The position numbers and the translations under genes are program-made. Below the pieces are notes generated by a model. It was not told the DNA's origin. It saw only the letters and a program-made list of their open reading frames with translations, and did no database searches. A stretch of 48,498 bases of DNA from a virus. Below, in pieces: positions 9 through 28,516 of the stretch. Position 1 is the first letter of the stretch. Every line of letters starts with the position of its first letter. The stretch covers positions 1 to 48,498 of the IMG/VR virus record IMGVR_UViG_3300050821_002711; one strand, written 5' to 3'.

Positions 9-1568
9 TCACCAGCCCTCTAGCGACTTGACGCGCTCGGCGTCGCGCTCTTGTCGTTTTGTCTCGGCTTTGACCCAGCCGAGCGTCAAAAACTCGTTTT
101 TTGGCTTCTCGGGCTTCCTCGTGCGGCTTCCTCGAACCCTGCCGAGCCCCAAGCCAAACAGCGAGCACGTATCGACGAAATCGTCATGCGCGCCCTGCGG
201 AAATTTCATCATTTGGTCGTGCGCGTCGGCCCACCAGCGCGGAAAGTTGGGAAAAATGACTTTTCCCATCGCGGTGCGGCCCTGAAAGCTCTGGGCGCGG
301 GCCTCTTTGTCGCCGTTGGGCACGATTTCGTCGATCGAGCAGAAAACTCGCCGCTCCATCATCCGCTTGCGCAGAAAAGGCCCGATCGAGCGCGAAATAT
401 GACCCTTCTCGGCCCACCAGAAGATCGGGTTGTAGCGCTCGATCATGTGAACCATCGCCTCGACGACAGTTTTCGTGTCTGCCTGCTGCCAGAAGATGTC
501 GGGCATCACCCAAATCTGTTCGTCGTCGTCTACGCCGACGATCATGAGACAGGTTTTGTCCCTCCCTTGAGCCGTAGACACGGCGTGATCGCTTGCGCCG
601 TAAAACTTGAGCCGAGACTTGTCTGGGAGATCGCTCATCCGCTTGTAAGTTCTGATCCAGGCGTCACGAAAGAAGCTCCCGTCCTCCGGCGACGGCGAAC
701 CCTGGTAAAGCGCCTGAAAACCGCGCTTGTCGGTGGTCTTGATGTTCTGCAAATAAGCGTCGTCGAAGCGTTCAGGCCAAAGCGCCTCGCCCGGCGCGCG
801 CCCGAGGATGTCGTTCTCGCCCGCGATGGCGGGAAAATCGATGATCCGCCACTGTCTGGCTTCCGCTTCGCTGAAACAGGGGTTTCTGGGATCGGTGAGA
901 CGCCCGACGAGGTCGTCCTCGTGCCAGCGTGTCTGGATGATGACGATCCAACCAGCTTTGGTCATCAGCCGTGTCTGCAAAACCTGGGTGTACCAGGTCC
1001 AAAGGTCTTCGCGGATTTGGATGCTGTCGGCTTCCTTGCGATTTTTGATCGGATCGTCGAGCAAAATGCCGTCGCCGCCGCGTCCAGTGATCCCTGAACC
1101 TCTGCCGAGGAAGAACATCGCGCCGCCGCCATCGATTTCCTGACGGCCTTGCGCGGCTGAGCCGACTTGCAGCCGCACGTCGGGGAAAACATGGGCGTAA
1201 AGCGGGCTTTTCATGATGTTGCGGACGGCTCGACCGTGATCCCAGGAGAAATGCTCGCCATAAGTCGCGACGATTGTCGAGTTTTCAGGGTTGCGGCCCT
1301 CGTACCAGGGCACAAACAGATGGGTCGCGAGCTTGGTCTTGCCGTGTCTGGGCGGCATGTTGACGATGAGACGGGTGATCGCGCCCGCCTCGACCTCTTC
1401 GAGCGCCGCGCCCAAGACCCGGTGATGCTTGGCGTCGCGATAATTCGACTGCGCCATGTCGTCGGGGGCGTCGGGCGACGGCGTCATGTAGCGGGCGAAC
1501 GCGATCAAGCTTTCGCGAGCCTGCAAGATCGCTTTTTTGCGTTCGAGAAGCGCGCGCAGCTCGTTCAT
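9..1568 (-). CDS. terL: Terminase large subunit (TerL)
   Basis: The packaging motor that translocates DNA through the portal and cuts concatemers. The 519-residue protein has a Walker A P-loop (PPRHGKT, about residues 72-78), a Walker B with acidic pair (GILLDDP, about 168-173), a coupling region with QTRWHEDD, and a C-terminal RNase H-type nuclease with Asp in GASDHA and in GAHDDFVDT. The open frame extends 75 codons further upstream, but that stretch is Arg-rich and antisense-like. The ATG at 1568 overlaps the previous stop as ATGA, so I chose it. The stop lies 1 nt before an ATG at 7-5 that would begin the portal gene if the molecule is circular. Family call is confident. Confidence 0.95.
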   Translation of the reverse strand: MNELRALLERKKAILQARESLIAFARYMTPSPDAPDDMAQSNYRDAKHHRVLGAALEEVEAGAITRLIVNMPPRHGKTKLATHLFVPWYEGRNPENSTIVATYGEHFSWDHGRAVRNIMKSPLYAHVFPDVRLQVGSAAQGRQEIDGGGAMFFLGRGSGITGRGGDGILLDDPIKNRKEADSIQIREDLWTWYTQVLQTRLMTKAGWIVIIQTRWHEDDLVGRLTDPRNPCFSEAEARQWRIIDFPAIAGENDILGRAPGEALWPERFDDAYLQNIKTTDKRGFQALYQGSPSPEDGSFFRDAWIRTYKRMSDLPDKSRLKFYGASDHAVSTAQGRDKTCLMIVGVDDDEQIWVMPDIFWQQADTKTVVEAMVHMIERYNPIFWWAEKGHISRSIGPFLRKRMMERRVFCSIDEIVPNGDKEARAQSFQGRTAMGKVIFPNFPRWWADAHDQMMKFPQGAHDDFVDTCSLFGLGLGRVRGSRTRKPEKPKNEFLTLGWVKAETKRQERDAERVKSLEGW

Positions 1569-2025: not shown

Positions 2026-2487
2026 TTAGACGCGCTCGGTGCGCAGGCCAGGACGCGGCGGCGGCTTCGTCGGCCCTTTCTTGGCAGGAAACGGAGCCCG
2101 CGCACCCGGCTGCGGCGGCGGCATGGGCCGCGCAATGGGGGGCGGCCCAGCGCCCGGAGGAACCCCCGGAGCCGCCGAACCCGACGCCATCATGGGCATT
2201 GCTGGGGGGCCGCCTGGCGTCGGGCCTTGCGGCAACGGCGCAGCTCCTGGGTGAACCATCGGCATCCCGCCGCCAGGCGGACCCATAGGCGGCCTGGGCG
2301 GGCCGCCCAGCATCGGCGGATGCGCAGTCATGGACATCGGCGCGCCATGCGCGGCGGCGAGCCCGGCGAGCAGGTGAGCGATGGCCGGGCTCGCGCCCTG
2401 CGGCGGGTTCATGCCGCCGACCAACGCCGGATTGGGGAGCGGCGGCGCGGTGCGCGCAGTCGCTGGCGGTCCAGAACCGAAAGCCAT
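2026..2487 (-). CDS. Pro/Gly/Met-rich late protein
   Basis: A 153-residue protein of low complexity: runs of Pro, Gly, Ala and Met such as PPMLGGPPRPPMGPPGGG and a basic tail (AKKGPTKPPPRPGLRTERV). No globular domain is visible. The start is supported by GGAG 8 nt upstream of the ATG. The composition resembles the C-terminal tail of the portal protein and the extension of the transglycosylase gene in this genome, suggesting a virion-associated disordered protein. The frame is real rather than a shadow because it has a proper ribosome site and lies tightly between neighbours. Function unknown. Confidence 0.65.
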   Translation of the reverse strand: MAFGSGPPATARTAPPLPNPALVGGMNPPQGASPAIAHLLAGLAAAHGAPMSMTAHPPMLGGPPRPPMGPPGGGMPMVHPGAAPLPQGPTPGGPPAMPMMASGSAAPGVPPGAGPPPIARPMPPPQPGARAPFPAKKGPTKPPPRPGLRTERV

Positions 2488-2564: not shown

Positions 2565-3146
2565 TCAACTCTGTGCAATTTCCCCGAAGCTGCGAGACTG
2601 CTTCTTGCGCAACCTGAACATCGTCAGGAAGCCGAGGCCGATGAGCGACATCGCCCAGGTCGAGGGCTCGGGCGTCGAAACCGCCGTGATCGTGCCGTCG
2701 ATCGCGATGTGGATCGGCGACGCGCCGCTGATCCCCGACATTTCGGCGAAGTAAGCGCCAGCGCCGAGCGCGTCAGGCGAGACGGTCGCTTCCTGGCCGC
2801 CGAGCACGTTCACCAGCGCCGAAGCTTCGATCAGCGAGCCGAGCGGTTGGAACGGCGACAGGGGCGCGGTCGAAGTCCAGTTGTTGAGCGACAATTCGCC
2901 GCTGGTGATCCGCTGCGTGCCGATTGCGCTGTCCGACACGCTGACCGTGACGGTTTCCGTGACCGGCAGAGTGAACTCGAAAAACTCCGAGAACCCAATG
3001 CCGGAGCCCGGCGTGTCTTCAGCCGGAAGCGCCAGGCTCTCGTTGAGAACCGAGCCGATATTCTCGACAGTGATCTGCGTCGCCGCGTGCGCGGGCGCAG
3101 CCGCAACGACAGCGACAAGCGTTGCGACAGATAGGGTCTTCGACAT
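2565..3146 (-). CDS. Secreted PEP-CTERM (exosortase-target) protein
   Basis: A 193-residue exported protein. It starts with a signal peptide (MSKTLSVATLVAVVAAAPAHA, cleavage predicted after AHA, about residue 21). A beta-rich domain with GFSEFFEFTLPVTETVTVSVSD follows, reminiscent of the FxDxF-type PEP-CTERM family. It ends with a textbook sorting tail: TPEPSTWAM (158-166), a hydrophobic segment, then RLRKK (178-182). Known biology: the PEP motif is recognised by a membrane exosortase, which cleaves and anchors surface or exopolysaccharide-matrix proteins. GGGAGA lies 8 nt before the ATG at 3146; longer starts are rejected because they antisense the neighbour. It lies in the late/lysis operon just after a DUF3309-like gene. 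No exosortase is visible in the window, so the host must supply it. Unusual cargo for a phage. Confidence 0.9.
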   Translation of the reverse strand: MSKTLSVATLVAVVAAAPAHAATQITVENIGSVLNESLALPAEDTPGSGIGFSEFFEFTLPVTETVTVSVSDSAIGTQRITSGELSLNNWTSTAPLSPFQPLGSLIEASALVNVLGGQEATVSPDALGAGAYFAEMSGISGASPIHIAIDGTITAVSTPEPSTWAMSLIGLGFLTMFRLRKKQSRSFGEIAQS

Positions 3147-3148
3147 TT

Positions 3149-3328
3149 TTACAGTCTCCCGGTTAGAAGCAAGATGATGAGGACAACAAGGACGACGGTG
3201 ACGATCCCGACGCCGCCGTGGCCGAAGCCATAGCCGTATTGCCAGGGCGCGTTGACATAAGAGCCGCCGACGCCGCCAAGCAGGATCAGGATCAGGATGA
3301 CAACAAGGATAATGCCGATCATGCTCAT
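3149..3328 (-). CDS. DUF3309-like small membrane protein
   Basis: A 59-residue protein of two hydrophobic helices (MSMIGIILVVILILILLGG and GGVGIVTVVLVVLIILLLTGRL) flanking a Gly/Tyr/Trp-rich hinge (NAPWQYGYGFGHGG). This is the layout of DUF3309 proteins, which are common in alphaproteobacterial chromosomes and of unknown role. The ATG overlaps the stop of the upstream holin candidate as ATGA, so the two are co-translated. Because it is in the lysis cassette it may assist membrane disruption; equally it may be a host-derived moron with the PEP-CTERM gene beside it. Confidence 0.8.
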   Translation of the reverse strand: MSMIGIILVVILILILLGGVGGSYVNAPWQYGYGFGHGGVGIVTVVLVVLIILLLTGRL

Positions 3329-3636
3329 TCTTTCGGCTCCCTTCCGCGACCGAGCCAGAACGCAACAACTGCGCCGAACGCCGCGACCAGGCCGCCGATC
3401 GCGCCGCTCGTAATTTCGTCCGTGGGGATCGTGAAAAATGCGCAATAAGTCACCAAGCTCAGAAACGACAGAATGACGAGAAGCGACACCGTGAGCGTGC
3501 CGCCGGTCGGGTCGAACCGCGACGAGACGATCAGAAGAATTGCCGTTAGCACGACTGCAATCAACAAGCCGATCGACGCCGGATAGTCGAGCAGCTTGGG
3601 GGTCGGCGGCGGAATGACGAGATCGTTTGCGGCCAT
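3325..3636 (-). CDS. Holin candidate, three membrane helices
   Basis: A 103-residue protein with three predicted membrane helices (about 18-39, 48-70 and 77-96) and a short charged C-terminus (GRGREPKE). This is the architecture of class I holins. It lies two genes after the GH19 endolysin, separated by another small membrane protein, in the same minus-strand cluster. Holins form inner-membrane lesions at lysis time and release endolysin to the cell wall. There is no family signature I recognise, so the call rests on topology and position. The alternative is that the adjacent 117-residue protein is the holin and this is an antiholin or accessory. Confidence 0.6.
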   Translation of the reverse strand: MAANDLVIPPPTPKLLDYPASIGLLIAVVLTAILLIVSSRFDPTGGTLTVSLLVILSFLSLVTYCAFFTIPTDEITSGAIGGLVAAFGAVVAFWLGRGREPKE

Positions 3637-3639
3637 GTC

Positions 3640-3993
3640 TCACTTCAACATTTTCAGGAAACCGGCAGGCGGGAAGAACGTCGCCGCCGCGCCGATGATC
3701 ATGTCTTTGATGTCGCTCGGACTGTAATCCTCGTCGCGAACCTGAGTGTGCAGATCGGCGATCACCTTGGCGGCGCTCTCAGCGAGCGCGTCGGGGCTGG
3801 CGATGCTGCCTGTCTGAAACAACTTGCCCGCTTCGGTCAGCGCCGCTCGGCGAATAGCTTCCTCGTTGCTGTCGCTTTCTTTGATCCCAAGATAAGAGCG
3901 CAGCCAGTTCATCGCGTAGACACACAGCGCCGTAACAGCGGCGGCGGCGCAGGTCGTGACGAGTGTCTGGACTTCGTTGAGGATCGTTTCCAT
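3640..3993 (-). CDS. Single-span membrane protein, holin-LLH-like
   Basis: A 117-residue protein with one N-terminal hydrophobic span (TTCAAAAVTALCVYAMNWL, about 13-31). It is followed by a charged amphipathic helix (LGIKESDSNEEAIRRAALTEAGKL) and an acidic C-terminal half. N-terminal span plus long helical cytoplasmic part resembles superfamily 6 (LLH) phage holins. Its ATG overlaps the endolysin stop as TGATG. Role as holin, antiholin or spanin-like factor cannot be separated from sequence alone. Confidence 0.55.
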   Translation of the reverse strand: METILNEVQTLVTTCAAAAVTALCVYAMNWLRSYLGIKESDSNEEAIRRAALTEAGKLFQTGSIASPDALAESAAKVIADLHTQVRDEDYSPSDIKDMIIGAAATFFPPAGFLKMLK

Positions 3994-4715
3994 CACTCCA
4001 CCAGATAGACGTTGTCGCCGAGCCTGATCCAAACCGGCATGTCGGACGAGAGCGAGATGGTCGGGTAGACAGGCTCGGGCGCGGGCTCCGGCTCCGGCTC
4101 GGGCGACGGCTCGGGCGTCGGCGCGGTCGCAATCGCGTCCTTGAATTTCCAGTAATAGCCCGCGATCGTCTGCGCCTGGTCGGTGCCGTTGACGATGCGG
4201 CGCGCGTTGACCGGGTCTTCGACGGTCGAGTTGAAATATTTGCTCAAGCCGACGCCCGTGAACCAACCGATCGACATGCCGTCGTAGAGAACGAGCGCCG
4301 AGGGCTGATCGTCCAGCATCAGTTCGGGCTGGGGGTAGAGCGGCGCGTCAACGCCGTAGTTGGTTTTAAGCTGCTGCTCGCCCTTCTGGTAGTTGGTGTC
4401 CCAGGTGAGCTGAACGTGGCCGCGACCATAATACGCCTTGCCGTAAGGGCCGGTCGGGTTCCAATAGGTCTTGGGGGGATTGCCGTAGGGCTTGCCGCCG
4501 TTCTCCGCGACCGGCTTCATCTTTCGCCCGGTCTCGTGGAACACCGTCGCCATGCAGTAGGCGAGCCAGCGGTTGCCGTCGCGCGGGTTGGCTTGCTCGA
4601 AATAGTCTTCCCAGACATCGAGCAGATAGTTCATACCATCGACTTGCGCTTGGCTGAGATTGCCGCCGAACAGGGAAGCTCGAACTCCGCTGAAGAATTT
4701 GTCGCGGTCGATCAT
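3993..4715 (-). CDS. Endolysin, glycoside hydrolase 19-like
   Basis: A 240-residue peptidoglycan hydrolase. The catalytic domain shows AYCMATVFHETG with the likely catalytic Glu at residue 61, and the GH19 substrate-groove motif YYGRGHVQLTW (95-105) followed by NY. A Pro-Glu linker of repeated EP units (about 198-217) leads to a short C-terminal segment (YPTISLSSDMPVWIRLGDN) that could bind cell wall. GH19 phage enzymes cleave beta-1,4 bonds of peptidoglycan. No signal peptide is visible, so release would depend on a holin, and holin candidates follow directly. The ATG at 4715 overlaps the preceding stop (ATGA). Confidence 0.88.
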   Translation of the reverse strand: MIDRDKFFSGVRASLFGGNLSQAQVDGMNYLLDVWEDYFEQANPRDGNRWLAYCMATVFHETGRKMKPVAENGGKPYGNPPKTYWNPTGPYGKAYYGRGHVQLTWDTNYQKGEQQLKTNYGVDAPLYPQPELMLDDQPSALVLYDGMSIGWFTGVGLSKYFNSTVEDPVNARRIVNGTDQAQTIAGYYWKFKDAIATAPTPEPSPEPEPEPAPEPVYPTISLSSDMPVWIRLGDNVYLVE

Positions 4716-4981: not shown

Positions 4982-6154
4982 TCAAAGCTCCGCGCTTAGA
5001 TTGACGTCTGACCTATAGCTGGCAGTCCCAGTAGCAGTTACCGTGGCAGAGGTATACATACTTGAGGAACTAAGCGCTGCCGCAGTTGAGGATGTGCAGT
5101 TAATTACATTCGAAAAATTGCTCAATACTATTGTAGGAGCGCTTCGCATTGTAACTGGAAGCGCCATGGGTTGATAGAAAAAGCCCGCTGGCGCATAATT
5201 CGTAATTGTCATCAAAGTACTGATGACCTGATAATACCTCTGGCAATCGGCCATGCTCTTCGCCAGCGACTGCCGGTTGAACGGCGTTGCCACGCTGCCG
5301 ATTTCGAGCTTGACCTCAGTCAAGTACAGGTGAGACGAAGTGGTTGAGACGATGTTGACCGAGCCTGTAGCCCCCACATATTGAACGCCAGCCCAAGCTC
5401 CCGCCGGGCCAAGAAGGGTGCTGCCAGAACCAAGGTTGAATATGACGGTCAGGCTGGCGCTGTTGTCGATGGTCCATGTTCCCGCCGTGTCGCCGGGAAT
5501 GGTGACGACGATCTTGGCCCAAGTGTTCGCGGCGAGCGTGAAGGTGAATGGATAGCTCCGGTTCGTCGCGCCGTTGCTGATGGCTCCCGAATGCGTTCCC
5601 GCCTTGTCCGAGTGCGCCCAGAAACTCAACGTGACAGGGGAAGCCGGTGAAGCCCCCCAATTGAGATCAAAGACGTTAAACCCCTCAATCTTTTGCTGGA
5701 TGAGAAAATAGTCACTCGCCAGCGACGCATAAGCCGCCGGAACGCTCGCAACGAGGCAATACCCATTCGAGCCAAGCTGTCCAAACGGTTGTCTTTGAAA
5801 ACTAAATTTGCCCGCCTGTGCGGCTACATACTGCCAGCGATCCACGACATAATTTGCGCCAGCCGCTGGCGTTGTCGCCGCCCCATTGTTGCGCTGGTCG
5901 ATCCGCATGTCGCCGTTGATGATGCGATTGTCGCCCCAGCGCACGCCGTCAACATATTGCTTAGTCGCGGCTTGCAACGACGCAGCCGGGTCGGTGGCGA
6001 GGACGATGGGCCCCTGCATCGTGCCGCCGACAAGGGGGAGATAGGCGACGCCTGAAGCGCCCGCCGTCCATTTGGTGCCGTCCCACGTCCAAGTGACGCC
6101 GCCGGACGTGAACTGCTGGCCGTTAGTCGGGTTGGAGGGGAAGTCGATAGCCAT
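4982..6154 (-). CDS. Tail fibre / receptor-binding protein
   Basis: A 390-residue virion protein. The N-terminus begins MAIDFPSNPTNGQQFTSGG and carries a second domain opening LPLVGGTMQGPIVLATDPAA...ATKQYVD, a repeat seen also in the upstream fibre. A jelly-roll-like domain follows with the phage tail signature NRIINGDMRIDQRNNG and YVVDRWQ. The C-terminus is Ser/Thr/Ala-rich, a typical variable host-recognition tip. It lacks the self-cleaving S74 domain present in the upstream fibre. The ATG at 6154 overlaps that gene's stop as TGATG. Its 3' end is visibly lower in GC than its neighbours, consistent with exchange of receptor-binding tips. Confidence 0.8.
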   Translation of the reverse strand: MAIDFPSNPTNGQQFTSGGVTWTWDGTKWTAGASGVAYLPLVGGTMQGPIVLATDPAASLQAATKQYVDGVRWGDNRIINGDMRIDQRNNGAATTPAAGANYVVDRWQYVAAQAGKFSFQRQPFGQLGSNGYCLVASVPAAYASLASDYFLIQQKIEGFNVFDLNWGASPASPVTLSFWAHSDKAGTHSGAISNGATNRSYPFTFTLAANTWAKIVVTIPGDTAGTWTIDNSASLTVIFNLGSGSTLLGPAGAWAGVQYVGATGSVNIVSTTSSHLYLTEVKLEIGSVATPFNRQSLAKSMADCQRYYQVISTLMTITNYAPAGFFYQPMALPVTMRSAPTIVLSNFSNVINCTSSTAAALSSSSMYTSATVTATGTASYRSDVNLSAEL

Positions 6155-7479
6155 CAGCGCGCCTCCAGCACAGACACGCGCTCGCGCAACGTCTTGATCT
6201 CTTGCAACAGCAGGGGCACGAATTTGGAGTAATCGACACCCCACCAATCAGTGTCTTCGTGGTAAGTGACAGCGTCGGGGAAGACTTCATTCGCCTCCTG
6301 CGCCATCACACCATGAGCGCGGACGCCGGGGGTGGTCTTCCACTCGAAGTCATAAATCTGAAGCGCATCGAGGATCGGACCAGCATCAAAGCTGCGCTCG
6401 TCGCGCTTGAGGCGCATGTCCGAAGCCGTGTTGTAGGCCACGCCAGGGTTCTGATAGGTGATGGTCCCAGCCGCCGTCGTGGAGTTGGCAAAGAACCCTA
6501 CTAAGTTGGTGCCTGCCGTTGTGCTGGTGACGCCGACCGCCAGAGCAGCCCCGGTGTTCGACCACACGCCGTTGATGAAGTTGACGCCGAACGAGGAGCG
6601 ATTGCCGAAGTTGCCGCCACCATTGCCTAAGCTAATGGTGTTCTGGCCGCACGTAATAAAGGTGGCGTTCAAGGTGCCGCCAACATTGGCGGCGTTCGTG
6701 ACCGACAAGCCGCCGTTGACCGTCAAGGTGTTGCCACCGACCATCGTCAATGGGCCGGTCACGGTGCCGCCCGCCAGCGGCAGATAATTGGCGAGATCAG
6801 TCGAAGCGGCTCGCGACGTGTCAGTTGGGTGACGATGATCGCCGCAGGCGAAGGCCGCCGACGAACCCGGCGCAGCCGTTCCGTCCATCAGCGGCGGCGC
6901 AGTCGAAGCGACAGGCACGACGGCGTTGCTGTTGGTCGAAATTACCCACTGGGTCGAGTTGCCGTCGTTATACCAGACGTAGAGTTGCCCGCTGACCGTG
7001 TCCCACCATAGCGCGCCAAGGTTCGGGCTGGCTGGCGGCGTCGCGCCGACACTGACCGCGCCGGAGCGAAGATCGACATACTGCTTGGTGACTGCGCCGA
7101 GCGCGGCGGTCGGGTCCGCCGCGAGCGTGAGCGCGCCGCTCAGCGCGCCGCCGGTCAACGGGAGGTAGAGCGCAGCCACGCCCGTCAGGTCTTGCATGGT
7201 GGCGAGGCGCGCCCAGTTGGCGGCGGTGAACGCGCCAGCCGCAGACGGCGCGGTCGCCTGGTAGAGAGCGCCTGCGTAGACAACGAAGTCGCCGACCGCA
7301 TAGGGCGCGGTGGTCATGAACAACCTGACCGCAAGCAGCTTCTGCGCTGTCTGCGCAGCGTTGATGTAGCCGAGATGAGCATCGGCGAAGTTGAGCCACA
7401 GCTCGCCCGGCGCACGCGTCGCCGCCTGGGGCATACTGCCCGGCACCGAGGATCGAAGGGTCTGAACTCTGTTAGGCAT
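6154..7479 (-). CDS. Tail fibre with C-terminal S74 chaperone domain
   Basis: A 441-residue fibre. The N-terminal half has the repeated LPLTGGALSGALTLAADPTAALGAVTKQYVD unit type and GDHRHPTD. The last 85-90 residues form an intramolecular chaperone auto-processing (peptidase S74) domain: SDMRLKRDE with the Ser/Lys dyad, DFEWK, HGVMAQE, VDYSKFVPLLLQEIKTLRERV. Such domains drive trimerisation and then cleave themselves off. It is encoded between two other tail genes. The start at 7479 is the first ATG after the preceding stop. Confidence 0.88.
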   Translation of the reverse strand: MPNRVQTLRSSVPGSMPQAATRAPGELWLNFADAHLGYINAAQTAQKLLAVRLFMTTAPYAVGDFVVYAGALYQATAPSAAGAFTAANWARLATMQDLTGVAALYLPLTGGALSGALTLAADPTAALGAVTKQYVDLRSGAVSVGATPPASPNLGALWWDTVSGQLYVWYNDGNSTQWVISTNSNAVVPVASTAPPLMDGTAAPGSSAAFACGDHRHPTDTSRAASTDLANYLPLAGGTVTGPLTMVGGNTLTVNGGLSVTNAANVGGTLNATFITCGQNTISLGNGGGNFGNRSSFGVNFINGVWSNTGAALAVGVTSTTAGTNLVGFFANSTTAAGTITYQNPGVAYNTASDMRLKRDERSFDAGPILDALQIYDFEWKTTPGVRAHGVMAQEANEVFPDAVTYHEDTDWWGVDYSKFVPLLLQEIKTLRERVSVLEAR

Positions 7480-7501
7480 GGCTCATCTGGCCTCGTGCTC
7501 G

Positions 7502-8062
7502 CTAGAATGTTCCAGCGTCGATGGTGAAGTTGTCGATCGCGCTCTTGGTCGGGTCCGAGCCGTCGATGCAGGTGCTGAGCGTCGCGGTCGGAGTGAAGGT
7601 AAGCACCGCCGCAGTGCCGAGGACGCCGCCGACCGTGGTCGTGACCGCGTTGCCCGCCGTCATCAATTGGGCGATCGTGTTCGTCGTCCACGGATACGGG
7701 CCGCCGCCTACACTCACGAGAACCTGCTGCGCGGCGGTCGCGTCCGGCACGGCGCGCGCGAGCTGCATGGCGAACGGCGAAGATGGCGCAGACACGTAAG
7801 TCTGGTTCGCGCCGGTCGGCGGCGGCAGGCTCGACGAAGACACGACCGGCGTCCACTCGAAGTCGGGCGCTGGCCCAGACAGGAGCACCTGGCCCTGCGC
7901 CGTCGCCGCAGGCACGCTGGCCTCGACCGAAATGCCGGGCGGCCCGGCAATGTAGTTGCCCCATCCTGTCTTGAGCGGCGGCCCAGGCGAGACGACCTCG
8001 ACCAGCTCGCCTGAATTCGGGTTCGCCGGGATGAATAGCGCGCTGTCGAAAGCCTTGGTCAT
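7502..8062 (-). CDS. Tail-associated structural protein
   Basis: A 186-residue Ala/Thr/Val/Pro-rich protein with short repeated segments of the form V-P-ATAQGQVLL-GPAPDFEWTP and VPDATAAQQVLVSVGGGPYPW. This looks like two copies of a small beta repeat ending in an aromatic. It lies between two fibre proteins and overlaps the upstream stop as ATGA. I read it as a fibre or baseplate-connector component; no family is recognised. Confidence 0.65.
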   Translation of the reverse strand: MTKAFDSALFIPANPNSGELVEVVSPGPPLKTGWGNYIAGPPGISVEASVPAATAQGQVLLSGPAPDFEWTPVVSSSSLPPPTGANQTYVSAPSSPFAMQLARAVPDATAAQQVLVSVGGGPYPWTTNTIAQLMTAGNAVTTTVGGVLGTAAVLTFTPTATLSTCIDGSDPTKSAIDNFTIDAGTF

Positions 8063-9429
8063 AGCCTGCTGCTCAATGCGGTGTTGTTGAGCGGCGTCTT
8101 GAACCAGGAAATAAAGACATAGGCGTCAGCCGTGGGGGCTTGGTTGAAGGTCACGCTGTCGCCGCTCGCCGCGTACTGGATGGCCGGTTCTTGGATGACG
8201 CCATCGATCGAAACGAGAAGTTCTTCAGGCCCGGCCAGATTGGGGTTGGTTCCGTCAGACGCCACCGTGAGGACGAAGGTGGCGCGTGATCCGTCCTGAA
8301 AGCCGGGAGGGGTGTTGATGTTCTTGCAGGGCTTGATCGCCACCGCGCCAGGCGCGAGCTGCGAGGCTGTTTGCAAGACATCGATCGCCACCATCGCGCC
8401 CGCCGGGAGCGGTTGCGCCAGGGTGATCGACGAGTTGACGATGCTAACGAAGAAATCGCCGGTCAAAAGACCAGGGTTGTTGTCCGGTGTCAGCCGCGCG
8501 CCGTTGACGTAACACTCGATCCCTTCCGGGTCTTGGCTGTTGATGGTGTAGGTGTTGTTGTAGAGGTCCGCCGTGGTGAGAGGGAATTGCTGCTGATTGG
8601 CGCTGGCGAGATAGTAGAGGCTGGCGGTGAACGCCTTCTGCGGCACCGTGAACGGTTGCCAGCCTGAACCGTTCCAGACTTGCATGGTGTTGGTGTTGGT
8701 GTCGAAGTAGAGACAGCCGGGCGTCAGCGGATCGCCGGTCAACGTCTGGGTTGGCGGCACGTCGGACGCGCCGCAGTAGAGCATTGCCATCATGCCGAAG
8801 GCGTTGGCCGATTTCATCGCCCACCAGCGGCTCGACCAGTGCTCTCCGGTGATTGCGTTGGTCGCCAGGATGTTCGGCGGGATGGTGTCGGGCATGTGCT
8901 CGGCCCAGGCGATCGACACGTTGGCCCAATCCTCGGCGACCGCCGCCTGGCGCAAGACTTCGTTGGCGTCGTCGAATGTCTGCGCGCTCTGTGTCTGGAC
9001 TTCGATCATCATCGGCGCGATCTGCGCAGACATCGTGCGCGCCTGAACCTGAACTTTCTCGCCCACGTCGCGCGTCGCCAGATTATCCGCTGCGTTTTTC
9101 TGGATCAGCGCACGCAGCTCATCGGTAGACTTCGCCAGCGCTTTCTGGCGTGTCTCGACCTCCCGCAGCATCGTCTGTGTCTGGGCCTGGATCGCCCGCG
9201 CCTCGGCCAACGCCGCAGCCTCGATCTTCCCGAGCGTCTGCTTGGGAAAACTCTCGGGCGTCAGAACACCGCTGTTGAGCTTGCCGTCCGCCCTGACGAC
9301 CTTCGCCAGTTGCCTGATAATGGCGTCGATTGAGCGCTTGTGATTGTCGAACTGCCGGTCGATTTCATAAGCGGGCGCAACCTGCACTGCGCCGAAATCG
9401 TAGAGTTTGACGGGCCGCTCGATCGCCAT
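8059..9429 (-). CDS. Tail fibre / tail spike adaptor protein
   Basis: A 456-residue protein. A long helical N-terminal region (about 75-160, with AEARAIQAQTQTMLREVETRQKAL type heptads) looks like a coiled-coil stalk. A conserved phage segment (GEHWSSRWWAMKSANAFG) and a domain with PGCLYFDTNTNTMQVWNGSGW, common in tail fibre proteins, come next. The C-terminal region is beta-rich (ECYVNGARLTPD, VSIDGVIQEPA). It is the first gene of the tail group; the N-terminus (MAIERPVKLYDFG) would contact the tail. Function as the anchor for the downstream fibres is inference. Confidence 0.75.
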   Translation of the reverse strand: MAIERPVKLYDFGAVQVAPAYEIDRQFDNHKRSIDAIIRQLAKVVRADGKLNSGVLTPESFPKQTLGKIEAAALAEARAIQAQTQTMLREVETRQKALAKSTDELRALIQKNAADNLATRDVGEKVQVQARTMSAQIAPMMIEVQTQSAQTFDDANEVLRQAAVAEDWANVSIAWAEHMPDTIPPNILATNAITGEHWSSRWWAMKSANAFGMMAMLYCGASDVPPTQTLTGDPLTPGCLYFDTNTNTMQVWNGSGWQPFTVPQKAFTASLYYLASANQQQFPLTTADLYNNTYTINSQDPEGIECYVNGARLTPDNNPGLLTGDFFVSIVNSSITLAQPLPAGAMVAIDVLQTASQLAPGAVAIKPCKNINTPPGFQDGSRATFVLTVASDGTNPNLAGPEELLVSIDGVIQEPAIQYAASGDSVTFNQAPTADAYVFISWFKTPLNNTALSSRL

Positions 9430-11038: not shown

Positions 11039-11986
11039 ATGGGTATCTTGAATAATCGAGGCTTAAAATATGGCAACTCGGCGAGGGCCGCAATCAAGAC
11101 AGCAATAACGTCTCATAGCGGCTGGAATAATTGGCGCGCTGAACGCGCCGCGCAACTTGGCGTGGACTTTGGCTCATTTCATTCAGGCTCATTGAGTATG
11201 GAAGAAATATTCAACGCTTGTGACGCATTGGGCATTGATGCTTTGAGCGTCACAGCGCAAGCCGGTTACAACTATGCGAGAGCAAAAGCGATGGCGCAGA
11301 CAAAACCGGCGATGGTTGCGACGATCGATGGCGACATGCCAGCGGAAGACGTTCCGAACTACCTTCGCCCATTGATGGAAAGCGACAGCATGAACGAAGC
11401 CGCGCCGGTTGCGACCGCCGACACTGGTTTTGTGGGCCGGGACGTTGAAGCTTTGATCGTTCAAGCTTTGTCGCCAGTTGAGGGATTGATCTCCGACCGG
11501 AAGCTTGCCGAGTTGAAGGCGCTGGTTTCACCGCTGGCGATGGCTGCGGCGCATCCGGTCGAGGTAGTGCGCGAGACTGTCAAGCTTGTCGAGACAAGCG
11601 CGCTATCGGTTCAAGCCGCTGCGCAGAGTGTGAAGCTTGGCGAAAAAAGCGCGCGCGAAGTTTTCGGCTTCAATCGAAGCGAAGGCGGCAAGAGTTGGAA
11701 AGCGGCTTTAGACGGCGCTCGGGTTGCGGTTTATTCGAGCGCATTGAGTGAGCCGATTGACGCTGATTACGTCTGGACGCCGGAACTTGCGGCGGTTTTG
11801 AGCGCCGCCGATGGCAAAGGCCAGAACGTTCTTTTGTACGGGCCAGCCGGAACCGGCAAGACGACGGCGGCAATGCAATACGCGGCGCGGACAGGCCGTC
11901 CGTTCATGCGCATTGCGTTTGATCGCACGACAGAGCCCGCAGACTTGAAAGGCGGGCGTTATCCAAGCGAAAGCGGCGGCGTTTGA
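11039..11986 (+). CDS. MoxR/CobS-like AAA+ ATPase, N-terminal part (frame broken)
   Basis: A 315-residue reading frame. The first 220 residues are helical and of unknown type. The AAA+ domain begins near 255 with Walker A LYGPAGTGKTTAA (about 265-277) and the CobS/MoxR-like stretch ADLKGGR. It stops at a TGA (11984-11986) inside the ATPase core. The +1 frame immediately continues with EWHDGNLTRAF and a Walker B LLLDEP, so the full protein would read ...SESGGV-EWHDGNLTRAFRVPG. The junction GTT TGA A resembles the CTT TGA C site of release factor 2 programmed frameshifting, but no strong Shine-Dalgarno stimulator lies just upstream. A simple mutation or sequencing error is equally possible. First gene of a four-gene cassette with a vWA protein. 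Confidence 0.8.
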   Translation: MGILNNRGLKYGNSARAAIKTAITSHSGWNNWRAERAAQLGVDFGSFHSGSLSMEEIFNACDALGIDALSVTAQAGYNYARAKAMAQTKPAMVATIDGDMPAEDVPNYLRPLMESDSMNEAAPVATADTGFVGRDVEALIVQALSPVEGLISDRKLAELKALVSPLAMAAAHPVEVVRETVKLVETSALSVQAAAQSVKLGEKSAREVFGFNRSEGGKSWKAALDGARVAVYSSALSEPIDADYVWTPELAAVLSAADGKGQNVLLYGPAGTGKTTAAMQYAARTGRPFMRIAFDRTTEPADLKGGRYPSESGGV

Positions 11987-13009: not shown

Positions 13010-15070
13010 ATGGGCAAGATGGTGACAGGCGGAGAGGTTTACGAGGCTATCCGCGAGACGTGCCAGCGATTGTATATCGCAGCCGGTGGCGACAAAAACG
13101 CAATCTGGACGGTGCAACCATTCCCGGAAACGGCGTGTATCGCAGTCGGAAAGAACGGCAAATATTGGAAGCTAGGGATGCCAGCAATCCCCGCGACCGC
13201 GCGTTTAACGACGCGCGAAGCGGACATGTTCGTGGCGTTTGGCGTTCATGAAATACTTCACGCGCTATGGACTGATTTTAACGTCGTAGCGCAATCGAGC
13301 CGCGAAGGATTGCACTCGCTGTGCAACGCGTTGGAAGACTGCCGCATTGAGGCGAAAGCGAAGCGAGGATTGCCAGCGGTGGCGGAAGCCGCAACCTTGC
13401 TCGAAATATTGACCAACCATGTTGTCGCGAAGGCCAGCGAAAAAACGCCATACCGTTTGGACGATGAGCGCAATTTTGCGTTCACTCTTGGCAACATCAT
13501 TTTTGTTGAGAAGCTAAAATATCGGCTTGTCGATTTTCCGCGCGATTGGCGCGCCGAGGTTCCGGCGCATTGGCTCCCCGTCATTGATCTGGCGTTGACG
13601 CGTTTTGGTTCGCTGCGCAGCACGCAAGACGTTTTGGTGCTGGCGCGCGATCTAACGGCGCTCGGACAATCATTGCAGCCGCAGCCGCAGCCGCAGCCGC
13701 AGCAAGGCGAAGGCAAGCCGCAGCCGAGCAAGGGCGAGGGCGAGGGCAAGCCGCAGCCGAGCAAGGGCGAGGGCGAGGGCGAGGGCGAGGGCGAGGGCGA
13801 GGGCGAGGGCGAGGGCGAGGGCGAGGGCAAGCCGCAAAACGGCCCTAGCAATGACGCTAGCGGCGCTTTCCCGAAAAAGCCGGACAATGAGACAGGCGAA
13901 GACGACAAAGCCGCTGGCAAGCCGTCTAAAGCCGCTGGCGAAGGCGAAGGCGAGGGCAAAGGCGAAGGCGAGGGCGAAGGCGAAGGCGAGGGCGAAGACG
14001 AAGGCGAAGGCGAAGGCGAAGGCATAAGCGGCGCTGGCGACAGGCTGCAAGGCGGAACGGACGAAGGCAAAGCGCCAATCGATTTGACCGATGCGCAACA
14101 AAACGCGCCGGACGCCAAGCTTGACGACGTTGCGGACAATGCTTCGCGCCGCGAAGGCATGACCGGCGCGCAAGCCGAAGACGCCAACCAACGCGCGGCA
14201 GATTTTTTCGCTGCGGTCGATAGTGTTGGTTTTCGCGAAGACATGCCCAACGCCTCGTTTGAAATTGAAACGATACGCGCGGCTTTGCCTACGCCAGCGA
14301 AGCTTAGGCGCGATGTCACGCTGGCGGTGAAATCGCCGGAACGCGTAGGCCGCGACCGGCGGCAAACGACGGGCCGAATGGACATGCGTTTGGCGGCGCA
14401 AATGCGCGCCGGTTCACAGAACGTCTTTTCGCGCCGCCATGACGAGACAGGCGTTCAAGCCGCAGTGTCGTTGCTTGTCGATATGTCCGGTTCGATGCGC
14501 GGCGAGCGCGCGAGAGCGGCGGCGGCGCTGGCGTTGCATCTTGGCGATGCGCTCAAAGCCGCTGGCGTCAAATTTGAGATCGCCGGTTACTACCAGATGC
14601 GCCAACGCGACGACGGCGCTTGCCGCGCGCGGCTTGGCTTCTGCAAAGAAATGGGCGCGGGCTGGACGCAAGAGGCGCGCGGCAAGACGGCGGCGCTCGG
14701 CTCGATGCCGAGCGGCGGGACTGCGACTATGCCAGCGGCGAAAGAAATGGCGCGGCGGCTCCTGAATGAGCGCAACGCCACAAGGCGCATCTTGCTTGTC
14801 TTGACCGATGGGCAGGACTGCTATTCGCCGGAAAGCATGAAAGCTTGCCGCGACTATTACGCCAAGCTTGGCGTGGAGATTGTGGCGCTGGCGATGATGA
14901 TCAACGAAAGCGGACAAGGCCAGATGATAGAACAATTGTTCCGGCGCTCATTTGGCAAAAATGTAACTTTCGTTAATGATCTGGCGCAAGTCGCCACGAC
15001 GGGCTTGCGCGAACTTGTCACGGTTCTCAACGCCAGCGACCGCGCGGCGGTGCAAGGAAAGGCGGCTTGA
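13010..15070 (+). CDS. CobT-like HExxH metallopeptidase-vWA protein
   Basis: A 686-residue protein. The N-terminal domain has a zinc-protease motif HEILH (80-84) followed by NALEDCRIE (about 109-117), typical of the peptidase-like domain fused to vWA in CobT-like proteins. The middle (about 225-345) is a low-complexity Gly-Glu linker of tandem GE units encoded by GGCGAG hexamers, interrupted by Pro-Gln and Lys stretches. The C-terminal vWA domain has an intact MIDAS: DMSGSM (D491, S493, S495), SGGTATMP and VLTDGQD. By analogy with CobS-CobT and MoxR-vWA pairs it should bind the AAA+ partner upstream. GAGGAA precedes the ATG. Whether the HExxH site is catalytically active is unknown. Confidence 0.85.
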   Translation: MGKMVTGGEVYEAIRETCQRLYIAAGGDKNAIWTVQPFPETACIAVGKNGKYWKLGMPAIPATARLTTREADMFVAFGVHEILHALWTDFNVVAQSSREGLHSLCNALEDCRIEAKAKRGLPAVAEAATLLEILTNHVVAKASEKTPYRLDDERNFAFTLGNIIFVEKLKYRLVDFPRDWRAEVPAHWLPVIDLALTRFGSLRSTQDVLVLARDLTALGQSLQPQPQPQPQQGEGKPQPSKGEGEGKPQPSKGEGEGEGEGEGEGEGEGEGEGKPQNGPSNDASGAFPKKPDNETGEDDKAAGKPSKAAGEGEGEGKGEGEGEGEGEGEDEGEGEGEGISGAGDRLQGGTDEGKAPIDLTDAQQNAPDAKLDDVADNASRREGMTGAQAEDANQRAADFFAAVDSVGFREDMPNASFEIETIRAALPTPAKLRRDVTLAVKSPERVGRDRRQTTGRMDMRLAAQMRAGSQNVFSRRHDETGVQAAVSLLVDMSGSMRGERARAAAALALHLGDALKAAGVKFEIAGYYQMRQRDDGACRARLGFCKEMGAGWTQEARGKTAALGSMPSGGTATMPAAKEMARRLLNERNATRRILLVLTDGQDCYSPESMKACRDYYAKLGVEIVALAMMINESGQGQMIEQLFRRSFGKNVTFVNDLAQVATTGLRELVTVLNASDRAAVQGKAA
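13725..14025 (+). repeat. GGCGAG/GGCGAA hexamer tandem repeats in the vWA gene
   Basis: Two tracts of in-frame 6-bp units coding Gly-Glu. The first (about 13725-13830) is nearly pure GGCGAG with two PQPSKGEGEGK-type units at its start. The second (about 13940-14025) mixes GGCGAA and GGCGAG. Length changes in multiples of 6 would keep the frame. Confidence 0.75.
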
Positions 15071-15939: not shown

Positions 15940-17052
15940 CTAACTCCCTGAAATGTCAAGCTTATCCGCAGCCTCGATCAAATAGTCAGGTGTAAGATGG
16001 ACATAAGTCGCCATTACCGTCCGAAGATCGTCTTGCAACCATTGCGCGACTTGGACGGGGTCTACACCTAATTTAATGCGATTGGTCGCCCAGGAATGAC
16101 GCAGGTCATGAATATTTAAATTGGGTTTCTTGGATTTTTTAATCAGGGTTTCCCATTGCGTGCGAATATTTTTAACTCGGCAGACACGAACGTCCTTGAT
16201 TATTTCGGGCGTTTTACCGGGCAAAGCGCCCGCGACACCCGCTCGATCGAGCGCTTCGCGGTAGGCGCGGCGCAGGATTGGCTCTAGCGCCTTCGACGCC
16301 GGAACCTTCATGCGGCGCTTTTTCCGGTTCGACGCCGGGGCGTCCGACGAGAAATCGAGGATGACGCGTCCGTCCTCGTTCCAGTTGATCTTGCCCCACG
16401 GGAGTTCGAGCACGGCCCCCCGGCGCGCCCCGGTGGCGACGGCGATCGTGGCGAACAGGGTGATCGGCTCAAGCGCGCCCTGGCCCTCTGGCGGGCTGGC
16501 CGCGACCGCCAGCGCCCACAAGTCAGCGATCTCTTTGACGGTCGCCGGATTGTTGCGGGCGGGCGGCTGCGGCGGCAGCTCGATATGGGGCAGCTCGGCC
16601 AGCGTGAGCATCCGGCGCTTGACCGCAAAGCGCAGCGCCGCCTTGAGCGCCCCCAACTCGCGCCGGATGGCGCTGTCTGTGCGGCCCTGTCTGCGGCGGG
16701 CGAGGGTGTAATCCTCGAAATCGCCGAACGGGATCGGATGGTCCGAGCGATCGCCGAACACCGCCAGCGGCGCGCGCAGCGAAAAGTCCTGGCTCATGCT
16801 GGTCTGGCGGTTTTCGCAATTGTCGAGGTAGCGCGCGCAAATCTCGCGCACCGTGGGTTTGCCGCTGTCGGCGACGATCCGCGCTAGATCGCGCCAGATG
16901 ATTTCCGCTGTAGCGCGCGCCGCGTCGCCGTTGCGTTCCTGAGTAGAGCGCGTCTGCGTTTTGCCGTCCGCTGTCCAGCGGAGTTCGTAGTATCCTTCGC
17001 GGTTGAGGGCGAGCTTGTAGGGCTTGCCGTCATAGAGTTTTTTACCACGCAT
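15940..17052 (-). CDS. int: Tyrosine-type site-specific integrase
   Basis: A 370-residue recombinase. It has an N-terminal arm-binding/core-binding region (to about 165) and a catalytic domain with Arg in TGARRGAVLEL (about 210), HDLRH (315-319) and the nucleophile Tyr350 in MATYVHLTPDY. The second conserved His/Trp position before the tyrosine (usually LGH) reads LQDD, so Asp341 stands where His is usual. The MRGKK start at 17052 has GAGG upstream; a longer start at 17103 is possible. It overlaps the HTH gene upstream by 169 nt in another frame. It integrates phage DNA at attB, and the likely attP is far away at about 29.8 kb. Confidence 0.92.
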   Translation of the reverse strand: MRGKKLYDGKPYKLALNREGYYELRWTADGKTQTRSTQERNGDAARATAEIIWRDLARIVADSGKPTVREICARYLDNCENRQTSMSQDFSLRAPLAVFGDRSDHPIPFGDFEDYTLARRRQGRTDSAIRRELGALKAALRFAVKRRMLTLAELPHIELPPQPPARNNPATVKEIADLWALAVAASPPEGQGALEPITLFATIAVATGARRGAVLELPWGKINWNEDGRVILDFSSDAPASNRKKRRMKVPASKALEPILRRAYREALDRAGVAGALPGKTPEIIKDVRVCRVKNIRTQWETLIKKSKKPNLNIHDLRHSWATNRIKLGVDPVQVAQWLQDDLRTVMATYVHLTPDYLIEAADKLDISGS

Positions 17053-17216
17053 GTCTTGTTCGCCTCGATGAAGTTGAGAAAGTCTTGCAGTTCGATCAGA
17101 CACGGACGGCCTTTGAGAAAGCGAAGGCCGGAAGCCTTGCGCCAGCGCGCCACCGTCTGCGCGGATTTACGAACGAGAGCGCCCGCTTCGCTGTCTGTGA
17201 GCCACTTTGTTGTCAT
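16884..17216 (-). CDS. Excisionase-like HTH protein overlapping int
   Basis: A 110-residue frame. The first 50 residues form a MerR/excisionase-type winged helix: LTDSEAGALVRKSAQTVARWRKASGLRFLKGRPCLIELQDFLNFI, split by a turn. The last 55 or so residues overlap the start of int in a different frame and have a Ser/Thr/Arg-rich, shadow-like composition. A functional overlap or decay of an original stop are both possible. It follows the repressor with a 50-nt overlap. Likely directs excision or controls int. Confidence 0.65.
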   Translation of the reverse strand: MTTKWLTDSEAGALVRKSAQTVARWRKASGLRFLKGRPCLIELQDFLNFIEANKTCVVKNSMTASPTSSPSTAKDTTNSAGQRTAKRRRALLRNATATRRALQRKSSGAI

Positions 17217-17763
17217 CTATCTTGGCCTCAGTCTGCTCTGGTTTTGCCTCTGTAGGTTCTGATTTCTTCGCCTCGACGACGAGGGTCTGGCCGACTGCGT
17301 TCTCAATCAGCACGTCGTAATTGGTGGCTAACAAAAACATGATTTTCGCCGCGACTTGTTCAGGCACTATTTTGTTGACGCGTAAAAAGACTTTATTGTC
17401 TTCGCCCTGAACCTTGGTGATCGAATAGGCCGGATTGGCTTGCTCGATCATCGCCGCGCCGAAGTGTTCGGGTGCTAGTTCAGCGACTTCGACGCCAAGC
17501 TGGTCGGCGATCTTTTTTAAGTTGCGCGGGTCAGGGAACGCCTTGCCAGCCACATAGACGCTGATCCGGTCGCGGTTCTTCGCCACCTTGTAGCCGCTCT
17601 TGGTTTCGGCGTGGCCCCACACGGCTCGGGCGAGATCGCTGTAGTTCCAGCCTTTCTGATCGAGCAATTGTTGCAGCCGCTGGCCGAAGGCTTGCTGTCC
17701 TATTTCTACGGTCGGCGGGCTGTCGGCCCGATGTGAGATGAACACTCTTTTTCGTGGAGACAT
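17167..17763 (-). CDS. CI-like phage repressor (XRE HTH)
   Basis: A 198-residue DNA-binding protein. The helix-turn-helix domain spans about 25-100 (FGQRLQQLLDQKGWNYSDLARAVWG ... DRISVYVAGKAFPDPRNLKKIADQLGV). The C-terminal half (ITKVQGEDNKVFLRVNKIVPEQVAAKIMFLL) may dimerise. No LexA-type Ser/Lys peptidase motif is visible, so induction may not be by self-cleavage. The MSPRKR start at 17763 has AAAGGA 9 nt upstream. It is divergent from the early operon across an operator-rich region, as expected for a lysogeny repressor. Confidence 0.82.
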   Translation of the reverse strand: MSPRKRVFISHRADSPPTVEIGQQAFGQRLQQLLDQKGWNYSDLARAVWGHAETKSGYKVAKNRDRISVYVAGKAFPDPRNLKKIADQLGVEVAELAPEHFGAAMIEQANPAYSITKVQGEDNKVFLRVNKIVPEQVAAKIMFLLATNYDVLIENAVGQTLVVEAKKSEPTEAKPEQTEAKIDDNKVAHRQRSGRSRS

Positions 17764-17806
17764 TTGTGGTGGTCCTTTCAAGTTGGTGGCGGGAATTAAG
17801 TTGTCG

Positions 17807-17824
17807 TTTTTGTCTCTTTTGTCA
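17807..17824 (-). promoter_or_regulatory. Shared operator/promoter motif, repressor copy
   Basis: On the minus strand this reads TGACAAAAGAGACAAAA, located about 45-60 bp upstream of the repressor ATG. The same 17-mer occurs on the plus strand at 27440-27456, upstream of another HTH gene. Likely a binding site for the repressor or a shared promoter element. Confidence 0.6.
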
Positions 17825-17849
17825 TAGCATGTCATAGAATGTCAACTCA
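17820..17849. promoter_or_regulatory. Three 10-bp tandem operator-like repeats
   Basis: TGTCATAGCA, TGTCATAGAA and TGTCAACTCA start at 17820, 17830 and 17840, one per helical turn. A minus-strand TTGACA (17845-17840) and TATGAC overlap them. This fits an autoregulated repressor promoter. Confidence 0.6.
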
Positions 17850-27799: not shown

Positions 27800-28516
27800 A
27801 TGCCCCTTGCATACATCCAATTCATCGACGGTCCCGACCGCCCAGGCAACCCCGTTGACCCCGGTTACGGGGTTAGCGGAGGTCATCCCGATCAGGGTCT
27901 GCCTGGCGCGCCTGGCCGCCCTGGGCACCTTCCAGCTCGTCCTGGCCGTCCGGTCGATCCGGGCTACGGCTGGGGCGGCGAGCGCCCGAGCCATCCGATC
28001 GCGCCTGGCGGCGGTCGTCCGGTCGATCCGGGTTATGGCGTAGACATCGAGGGTGGCGGCGGCGGAAGCGCCGGTCAGCTCCCTGTCTGGCCGGTCGATC
28101 CCGATCATCCGATCGCGCCGCCCACTCCGGGCCATCCGCTGCCCCCGGTCGATCCCCCTCCGGGCGCTGTCTGGCCGCCGCTGCCGCCGACCGTTCCCGA
28201 GGGCAAGGTGATCGCGCTCGTCGCGATCTCCGGCGTCGGCTATCGCTACGTCGTGCTCGAAGTGCCGCAGCATCCGGTCGATCCGGGCTATGGCGTCGGG
28301 GAAGGCGGGCACCCCGATCAGGGTCTGCCGGGGCGTCCTGGCCGTCCCGATCGCCCCTCGCAGGGCTTGCCGCCAACGGGCCGTCCGCCAGTTGCGGGTC
28401 AGCCGCTGCCGCCGCAGCGTCCGGGTCCAGCTCCCGGCCAGCCGTTGCCGCGTCCGCCGGTCAACCGTCCGTCGCCTGGGCCGATCCCGCCGGAGCCGGA
28501 AGTCGATCCCGTCTAA
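27800..28516 (+). CDS. Pro/Gly-rich repetitive protein (PVDPGYG repeats)
   Basis: A 238-residue disordered protein with repeated PVDPGYG (four copies), HPDQGLPG (two) and HPIAP units. There is one short ordered-looking stretch in the middle (GKVIALVAISGVGYRYVVLEV, about 136-156). Proteins of this style, with HP-QGLP repeats, occur in Rhizobiales phages and have no known role. It is not a collagen: the glycine period is irregular. A strong terminator follows. Confidence 0.75.
   Translation: MPLAYIQFIDGPDRPGNPVDPGYGVSGGHPDQGLPGAPGRPGHLPARPGRPVDPGYGWGGERPSHPIAPGGGRPVDPGYGVDIEGGGGGSAGQLPVWPVDPDHPIAPPTPGHPLPPVDPPPGAVWPPLPPTVPEGKVIALVAISGVGYRYVVLEVPQHPVDPGYGVGEGGHPDQGLPGRPGRPDRPSQGLPPTGRPPVAGQPLPPQRPGPAPGQPLPRPPVNRPSPGPIPPEPEVDPV

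Follow-up and report, generated by a model that had tools for sequence, protein, structure and literature searches.

A PEP-CTERM gene in a conserved phage slot predicted to hold host-sorted proteins with exchanged domains

The sequence analysed was IMG/VR virus record IMGVR_UViG_3300050821_002711, positions 1 to 48,498, and this whole stretch of 48,498 nucleotides is referred to as the window. A gene at 3146..2565 on the minus strand, with its ATG at 3146, encodes a PEP-CTERM protein of 193 amino acids. PEP-CTERM proteins cross the membrane by the Sec route, are retained by their tail and are processed by an exosortase. Judged from the sequences compared, this is a phage gene with export-type signals around one of several conserved domain families, with exchange of the domains at or near the signal borders and with purifying selection. 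We read it, with a probability of roughly 60%, as phage cargo carried in a conserved slot for host-sorted proteins, whose export, processing and effect on the cell surface are predicted. The gene comprises the following features:

2565..3146, minus strand: PEP-CTERM gene, founder of family F1 (PF07589 and TIGR02595 above their cut-offs; 54 homologous viral loci)
3081..3146, minus strand: predicted signal peptide, residues 1-22, MSKTLSVATLVAVVAAAPAHAA (read from the sequence; common to phages of the same type with unrelated mature domains)
2676..3077, minus strand: mature domain, residues 24-157, predicted PPC-like beta-sandwich (AlphaFold2 model and structural matches)
2568..2675, minus strand: PEP-CTERM tail, residues 158-193, with TPEPSTWAM, a hydrophobic helix and RLRKK (profiles and the tail form of the family)

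The N-terminal part of the protein is MSKTLSVATLVAVVAAAPAHA, followed by ATQITVENIG..., and the C-terminal part is TPEPSTWAMSLIGLGFLTMFRLRKKQSRSFGEIAQS. The signal peptide, read from the sequence and from aligned members, has a lysine in the n-region, a hydrophobic core and an AHA cleavage-type site. In the tail, TPEPSTWAM is followed by the hydrophobic stretch SLIGLGFLTMF and the basic end RLRKK. The PF07589 profile scored 29.0 bits (curated cut-off 20.7) and TIGR02595 scored 21.4 bits (curated cut-off 16); the original prediction of a signal peptide, a beta-rich domain and a PEP-CTERM tail was confirmed, including at the profile threshold below which it was to be abandoned. At the level of sequence, it is the tail that makes the window protein a PEP-CTERM protein. 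This gene was the sole PF07589 match in the 48.5-kb record, and no match was found in 14 control genomes. With the PEPxxWA-CTERM profile NF035944, the window protein reached 21.4 bits against a cut-off of 35, and 35 of 39 F1 members matched at E 0.01.

The F1 mature domain was identified at 54 IMG/VR viral loci (15, then 50, then 54 in successive scans), spread over at least five phage types with different terminases, portals or integrases. All F1 members with an intact C-terminus had the tail form [TV]PE[PALITS]xTW[ATV]M followed by a hydrophobic stretch and basic residues; the locus L270 has F1 with a run-on tail. The search of phage sequences for PEP-CTERM genes was run as a PEPxxTWAM DNA-motif scan of uncultured viral contigs, which gave at least 120 matches. 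Among the matches listed, 115 in-frame occurrences (111 loci) were at protein C-termini, and the expectation that few phage cases exist was not borne out. Among those listed C-termini, 13 matched the F1 profile and the others represented further families, the largest being F2, F3 and F4.

The F1 mature-domain profile found 16 of 16 virus records tried, at 206-246 bits. It matched none of 385 alphaproteobacterial genomes, a sample that may exclude the host, as only six of the 385 have PEPxxWA tails. F1 was also absent from 84,980 GTDB genomes in a two-motif, pattern-limited scan, and no F1 match was found in plasmids. The F3 profile matched 0/385 of the alphaproteobacterial genomes, and F2 had one weak match among them. 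In the cultured phages (INPHARED), there was no match to the full F1 protein or to one F3 protein; a 30-amino-acid tail query was likewise unmatched there, which shows little, as the BLAST low-complexity filter may have masked the query.

Genes were called in all loci and clustered, and the terminase, portal, capsid and integrase clusters differ between the contexts in which F1 occurs. In type A, which includes the window, the PEP-CTERM gene lies between the terminase/needle genes and the lysis genes. It lies beside the portal and terminase of another phage type in type B, between the portal and capsid genes in type C, beside an integrase at the end of another gene set in type D, and beside further genes in type E; still other contexts exist. 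The PHROGs comparison confirmed the terminase and portal in types B and C, the capsid in type C and the integrase in type D. The tree of F1 mature domains mixed the phage types, with well-supported branches forcing at least five changes for type C, at least three for type B and at least two for type D. The sequences show an independent folded domain flanked by the signal peptide and the PEP-CTERM tail, and a domain family that travels between several phage types.

Within one phage type, the same slot was occupied by different families. In counts in which some loci are overlapping pieces of one contig, the type C slot held F1 at 11 loci, F3 at 11 and F4 at five, the type B slot F1 at 15 and F2 at five, the type D slot F1 at 12, F2 at four and F3 at four, and the type E slot F1 at four and F2 at three. 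The families are not variants of one another by profile comparison, which showed no relation between F1 and F2, F3 or F4 (probabilities <1%). The clearest pair was L045 (F1) and L171 (F3), where the portal (97%), c6 (97%), c8 (98%) and capsid (100%) were near-identical or identical and the mature domains could not be aligned. In seven of eight aligned cross-family DNA comparisons, homology entered the 5' part of the gene and ended by codon 29; it restarted 1-3 nucleotides before the PEP codon in six of the eight and 8-15 nucleotides before it in the other two. The DNA alignment of same-family control pairs spanned the whole gene. These alignments show unrelated domains replacing one another in the same slot, and the DNA breakpoints fall at the borders of the two sorting signals or close to them.

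The reverse comparison was in agreement. Between L004 (type D) and L027 (type B), the mature domain was 92% shared, against 40% for the signal and 20% for the tail. L004 and L030, two loci of one phage type, had 95% of the signal in common and 65% of the tail. Across families, the similarity of signal peptides was 0.46 within a phage type versus 0.34, a value reached in 0 of 1000 permutations. These results argue that the mature domain moves while the sorting frame stays, most clearly on the signal side.

Occupancy of the slot was sampled by fetching phages through other genes. The type C phages were fetched by their capsid (80 loci). As the bait was built from PEP-bearing phages, closeness to it and presence of the gene are linked by design in the resulting counts, in which the slot was filled at 20/21 loci with a capsid identity of at least 90%, 8/12 at 87.5-90%, 5/21 at 85-87.5% and 0/26 below 85%. 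The informative part of this sample is that the near relatives almost all hold some PEP-CTERM gene. The filled slots were split about evenly between F1 (11), F3 (12) and F4 (10), with two altered-tail genes counted. The type B phages, fetched by their portal, had a filled slot in 13/16 at 80% identity or above, 13/34 at 65-80% and 0/23 at 50-65%, counts that are lower bounds because many contigs are short.

The position in type C, among the head genes between portal and capsid, could suggest a structural or virion-associated protein, such as a decoration protein, and phage decoration and fibre proteins often have beta-sandwich folds. However, 47 of the 80 capsid-anchored type C loci had no such gene in the slot, the gene lies outside the orientation of the head genes in types B and D, the same domain occurs in phages with different heads, and two export signals are retained in all of the intact members. 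A role in the virion is thus considered very improbable.

The median ratio of non-synonymous to synonymous substitution rates (dN/dS) was calculated over 375 F1 pairs, which are not independent and were thus compared without a statistical test. It was lowest in the mature domain (0.30), with values of 0.50 in the tail and 0.57 in the signal, and the purifying selection estimated in this way is strongest on the mature domain. This bears on the proposal that the protein might jam the exosortase. As a decoy, a flood of substrate would strip the host of its own PEP-CTERM proteins and loosen its extracellular polymeric substances (EPS), with the domain as passive ballast. Such a decoy would account for a sorting tail kept in all intact members and for the use of unrelated domains, and the degenerate form of some tails is what a poorly released substrate might show. 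It would need the tail alone, yet constraint is strongest on the mature domain, and the same few defined families recur across phage types where ballast would be expected to drift. We consider the decoy unlikely, and a change of the cell surface is favoured over it because a decoy needs no conserved domain.

Random capture of host PEP-CTERM genes, carried neutrally, was also considered, given the large number of such genes in some hosts and the frequent uptake of host genes by phages. The lack of F1 and F3, and the single weak match of F2, in the bacterial genomes sampled do not fit this explanation, nor do the purifying selection on the mature domain and the near-fixation of the slot in one phage clade. 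Neutral carriage is accordingly given little credence.

An AlphaFold2 model of the mature domain, built from 39 sequences, was a beta-sandwich with a predicted local distance difference test score (pLDDT) of 80.5 and a predicted template modelling score (pTM) of 0.77. A full-length run with 14 sequences gave a pLDDT of 50 and was not used. The best structural match was 3afg_A, the C-terminal domain of Tk-SP (VIA Z 11.1, 97 residues, 2.1 Å), followed by 5iku, ColG s3b (Z 10.7, 103 residues, 2.5 Å). The description as a PPC/collagen-binding-domain (CBD) beta-sandwich is that of a predicted model with 10-16% identity to its fold matches, and no sequence-level match of the mature domain to PPC-like domains was found. 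The model indicates a secreted binding-type module and no more, because other sandwiches score close behind. The periplasmic lysozyme inhibitor PliG was among the fold matches at Z 9.8; no claim of lysozyme inhibition is made, because many unrelated sandwiches reach a similar Z.

In the window, the PEP-CTERM gene is flanked by phage genes, with TerL, a tail-needle-like gene and a proline-rich gene on one side, and DUF3309, a holin-like gene, a GH19-like endolysin and tail fibres on the other. The further features of the window were as follows:

9..1568, minus strand: terminase large subunit (phrog_38, E 1.7e-99)
2026..2487, minus strand: proline-rich protein on the other side of the PEP-CTERM gene (sequence; it adjoins the PEP-CTERM gene also in L002 and L003)
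3149..3328, minus strand: DUF3309 small membrane protein, directly upstream (PF11752, 28.8 bits, E 1.4e-6, cut-off 22.3)
3325..3636, minus strand: holin-like protein (weak PHROG holin matches, E 0.07-0.18; position in the lysis block)
3993..4715, minus strand: endolysin (phrog_181, E 1.5e-26)
15940..17103, minus strand: tyrosine integrase (phrog_1, E 1e-39)
17167-17835: repressor-like gene (same search as the integrase)

The record also encodes a helicase, polymerase, primase, portal and major head protein, and looks like a temperate tailed phage because integrase, repressor, replication, portal and head genes are all present. The GC content of the PEP-CTERM gene (63.7%) was close to that of the window (62.0%), with no composition break at the gene. 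L002 and L003, two short contigs whose terminases match at 97% and 91%, repeat the order of lysis genes, PEP-CTERM gene, proline-rich gene, needle and TerL. An assembly chimera or host contamination was rejected as very unlikely, because these independent assemblies share the gene order. The phage origin of the gene, and its place inside a co-directional late/lysis block, were therefore upheld. The start codon lies two bases past the DUF3309 stop codon with GGGAGA upstream, and for this reason the gene is probably translated together with its operon.

The late expression proposed for the gene agrees with this block in the window and does not hold generally, since in types B and D the gene is opposite in orientation to its neighbours, like an independent moron. 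The promoter and terminator scans were at background level in the window and in L027; in L005, no promoter was found and terminator-like sites numbered 3 versus 1.2 expected. No sigma-70-like promoter for the PEP-CTERM gene was found in any of these three. The window capsid resembles those of Microcystis phage Mae-Yong1326-1 (60%) and Rhizobium phage RHph_N65 (46%), and no PEP-CTERM gene was present among the genes beside the terminase in either phage. With its absence beside TerL in these two relatives, its several contexts and its unfilled slots, the gene has the distribution of a moron or accessory cargo. For the type B portals, the resemblance is to those of Ochrobactrum and Sinorhizobium phages.

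The lysis-gene neighbours in the window, L002, L003, L227 and L253 raise the question of a lysis-associated envelope protein, a membrane-tethered periplasmic factor that would help to break the outer layers; an uncut protein would indeed be an inner-membrane-anchored periplasmic domain. This is thought unlikely, as types B, C, D and E have the gene away from the lysis genes. The surface-change reading is favoured over both a lysis role and a virion role because neither fits all of the contexts.

Other observations were made in the surroundings of these genes. Homologues of DUF3309 were present near the PEP-CTERM gene in 10 neighbourhoods. In 19 cases from several phage types (loci include L011, 9229-9801, and L229, 6443-6976), a proline/glycine-rich protein with PDQGLP and VDPGYG repeats is encoded immediately next to the PEP-CTERM gene, on its strand, and is a possible partner of the PEP-CTERM protein; its window homologue is at 27800-28516 on the plus strand, far from the PEP-CTERM gene. 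Two PEP-CTERM genes of the same or different families were adjacent or nearly so in L140, L149, L163, L178, L241 and L250. The 52-kb contig IMGVR_UViG_3300021475_000019 contained two different F1 copies (L005 and L026) about 42 kb apart, each beside an integrase, which represent either tandem prophages or an assembly join. Elsewhere in the window, several tail-fibre genes lie in a row beside the lysis genes (4982-9429, minus strand), of which one encodes an S74 chaperone domain and another gave a weak carbohydrate-binding match, and an AAA ATPase (11039-11986, plus strand) and a CobT-like protein (13010-15070, plus strand) form a CobS/CobT-type pair by PHROG matches.

No exosortase match was found in the window, as had been noted from the sequence, or in 15 other virus records bearing a PEP-CTERM gene. 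Among the sampled Alphaproteobacteria, exosortase (PF09721) was present in five of the six genomes with PEPxxWA tails, compared with 15 of 297 genomes of one order. Not every exosortase host would fit, because the Rhizobiales genomes with an exosortase had mostly VPLPA-type tails among those read. The type D integrase had one match, 36% identical, in a Bradyrhizobium metagenome-assembled genome (MAG) that is one of the six with PEPxxWA tails; the rest of the stretch around this match contained nothing resembling these phages. The exosortase and integrase observations are leads and not a host assignment.

In the known cases, PEP-CTERM proteins of bacteria have a stabilising role in EPS-cell contacts and floc formation (PMC12188702, PMC9850573). 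In the proposed explanation, the host Sec machinery would export the phage protein, and the PEP-CTERM tail would keep it anchored in the inner membrane, the domain facing outwards. The host exosortase would then cut or transfer the protein, and the domain would end up in the envelope or EPS, where it may bind a ligand and alter the infected cell or lysogen. The most likely effect would be changed access for competing phages or changed attachment of the cell in EPS, and varied hosts or rivals may drive the exchange of domains. Effects on the surface, EPS or superinfection, as originally suggested, are plausible; superinfection exclusion is one possible benefit and EPS attachment another. In a broader form, to which we give even odds, soil phages of exosortase-bearing bacteria would share a pool of virus-specific exported domains, shuffled at the edges of the signal peptide and PEP motif within a common sorting frame, and these phages would use the host exosortase to switch the surface properties of the infected cell.

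Several results weigh against the surface-change reading. A PPC-like fold is a generic module for binding or structure, from which no particular ligand follows. Tail similarity within a phage type was barely above chance (0.373 versus 0.354; 27 of 1000 permutations). The second proline of the PEP motif varies in some F1 members (PEA, PEL, PEI, PET), although a degenerate PEP need not mean lost function, because a bacterial genome that has PEPxxWA tails also contains a VPEASTWAM tail. At the type C locus L272, in the slot between portal and capsid, F3 is followed by a non-PEP tail that is otherwise hydrophobic and basic, VVPGPVVGAGLPGVIVGCGFLVLLAMTRRKARGLVV, the only such case among the fetched loci. 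The Bradyrhizobium MAG is the sole genomic host lead, and PF09721 was not found there.

PEP-CTERM sorting has so far been treated as a bacterial EPS/surface system. In this soil phage and many others, the slot is fixed and both sorting tags are retained while the exported domain changes, which suggests that such phages may remodel the surface of the bacteria they infect. If so, phages would make large-scale use of this sorting in soil, and the domain swaps in the slot would form a natural series in phages that are otherwise nearly identical. Two questions would become testable, namely the surface function of PEP-CTERM proteins and the selection acting on exported phage accessory proteins.

In the open-access literature searched, with most subscription journals outside it, no paper linking PEP-CTERM genes to phage genomes was found, nor any report of phage-borne exosortase substrates with exchangeable domains. 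The phage proteins resemble the bacterial PEP-CTERM/exosortase substrates (PF07589, TIGR02595, NF035944) in having a signal peptide, a PEP motif, a hydrophobic helix and a basic end. They differ from them in being phage-borne, in the lack of an exosortase in the virus records searched, in domains absent from the sampled bacterial genomes and in the exchange within a fixed slot. The FxDxF PEP-CTERM profile NF038126 matched the window protein along residues 8-180 and all 39 full-length F1 members at E 0.01 or better; assignment to this family was weighed and rejected, as the window protein scored 45.4 bits, narrowly short of the cut-off of 50, and the mature domain alone was unmatched in 39 members. 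The likeness to the PPC/collagen-binding-domain beta-sandwiches of Tk-SP and ColG s3b is one of predicted fold, with the low identity given above as the difference. The P22 SieA protein, of which there are three types less than 30% identical (PMC10883804), and other prophage surface or superinfection-exclusion genes are similar as single phage accessory genes acting at the membrane, an action that is predicted here. What sets the phage PEP-CTERM gene apart is that it has sorting signals and that exchange is confined to the domain between them.
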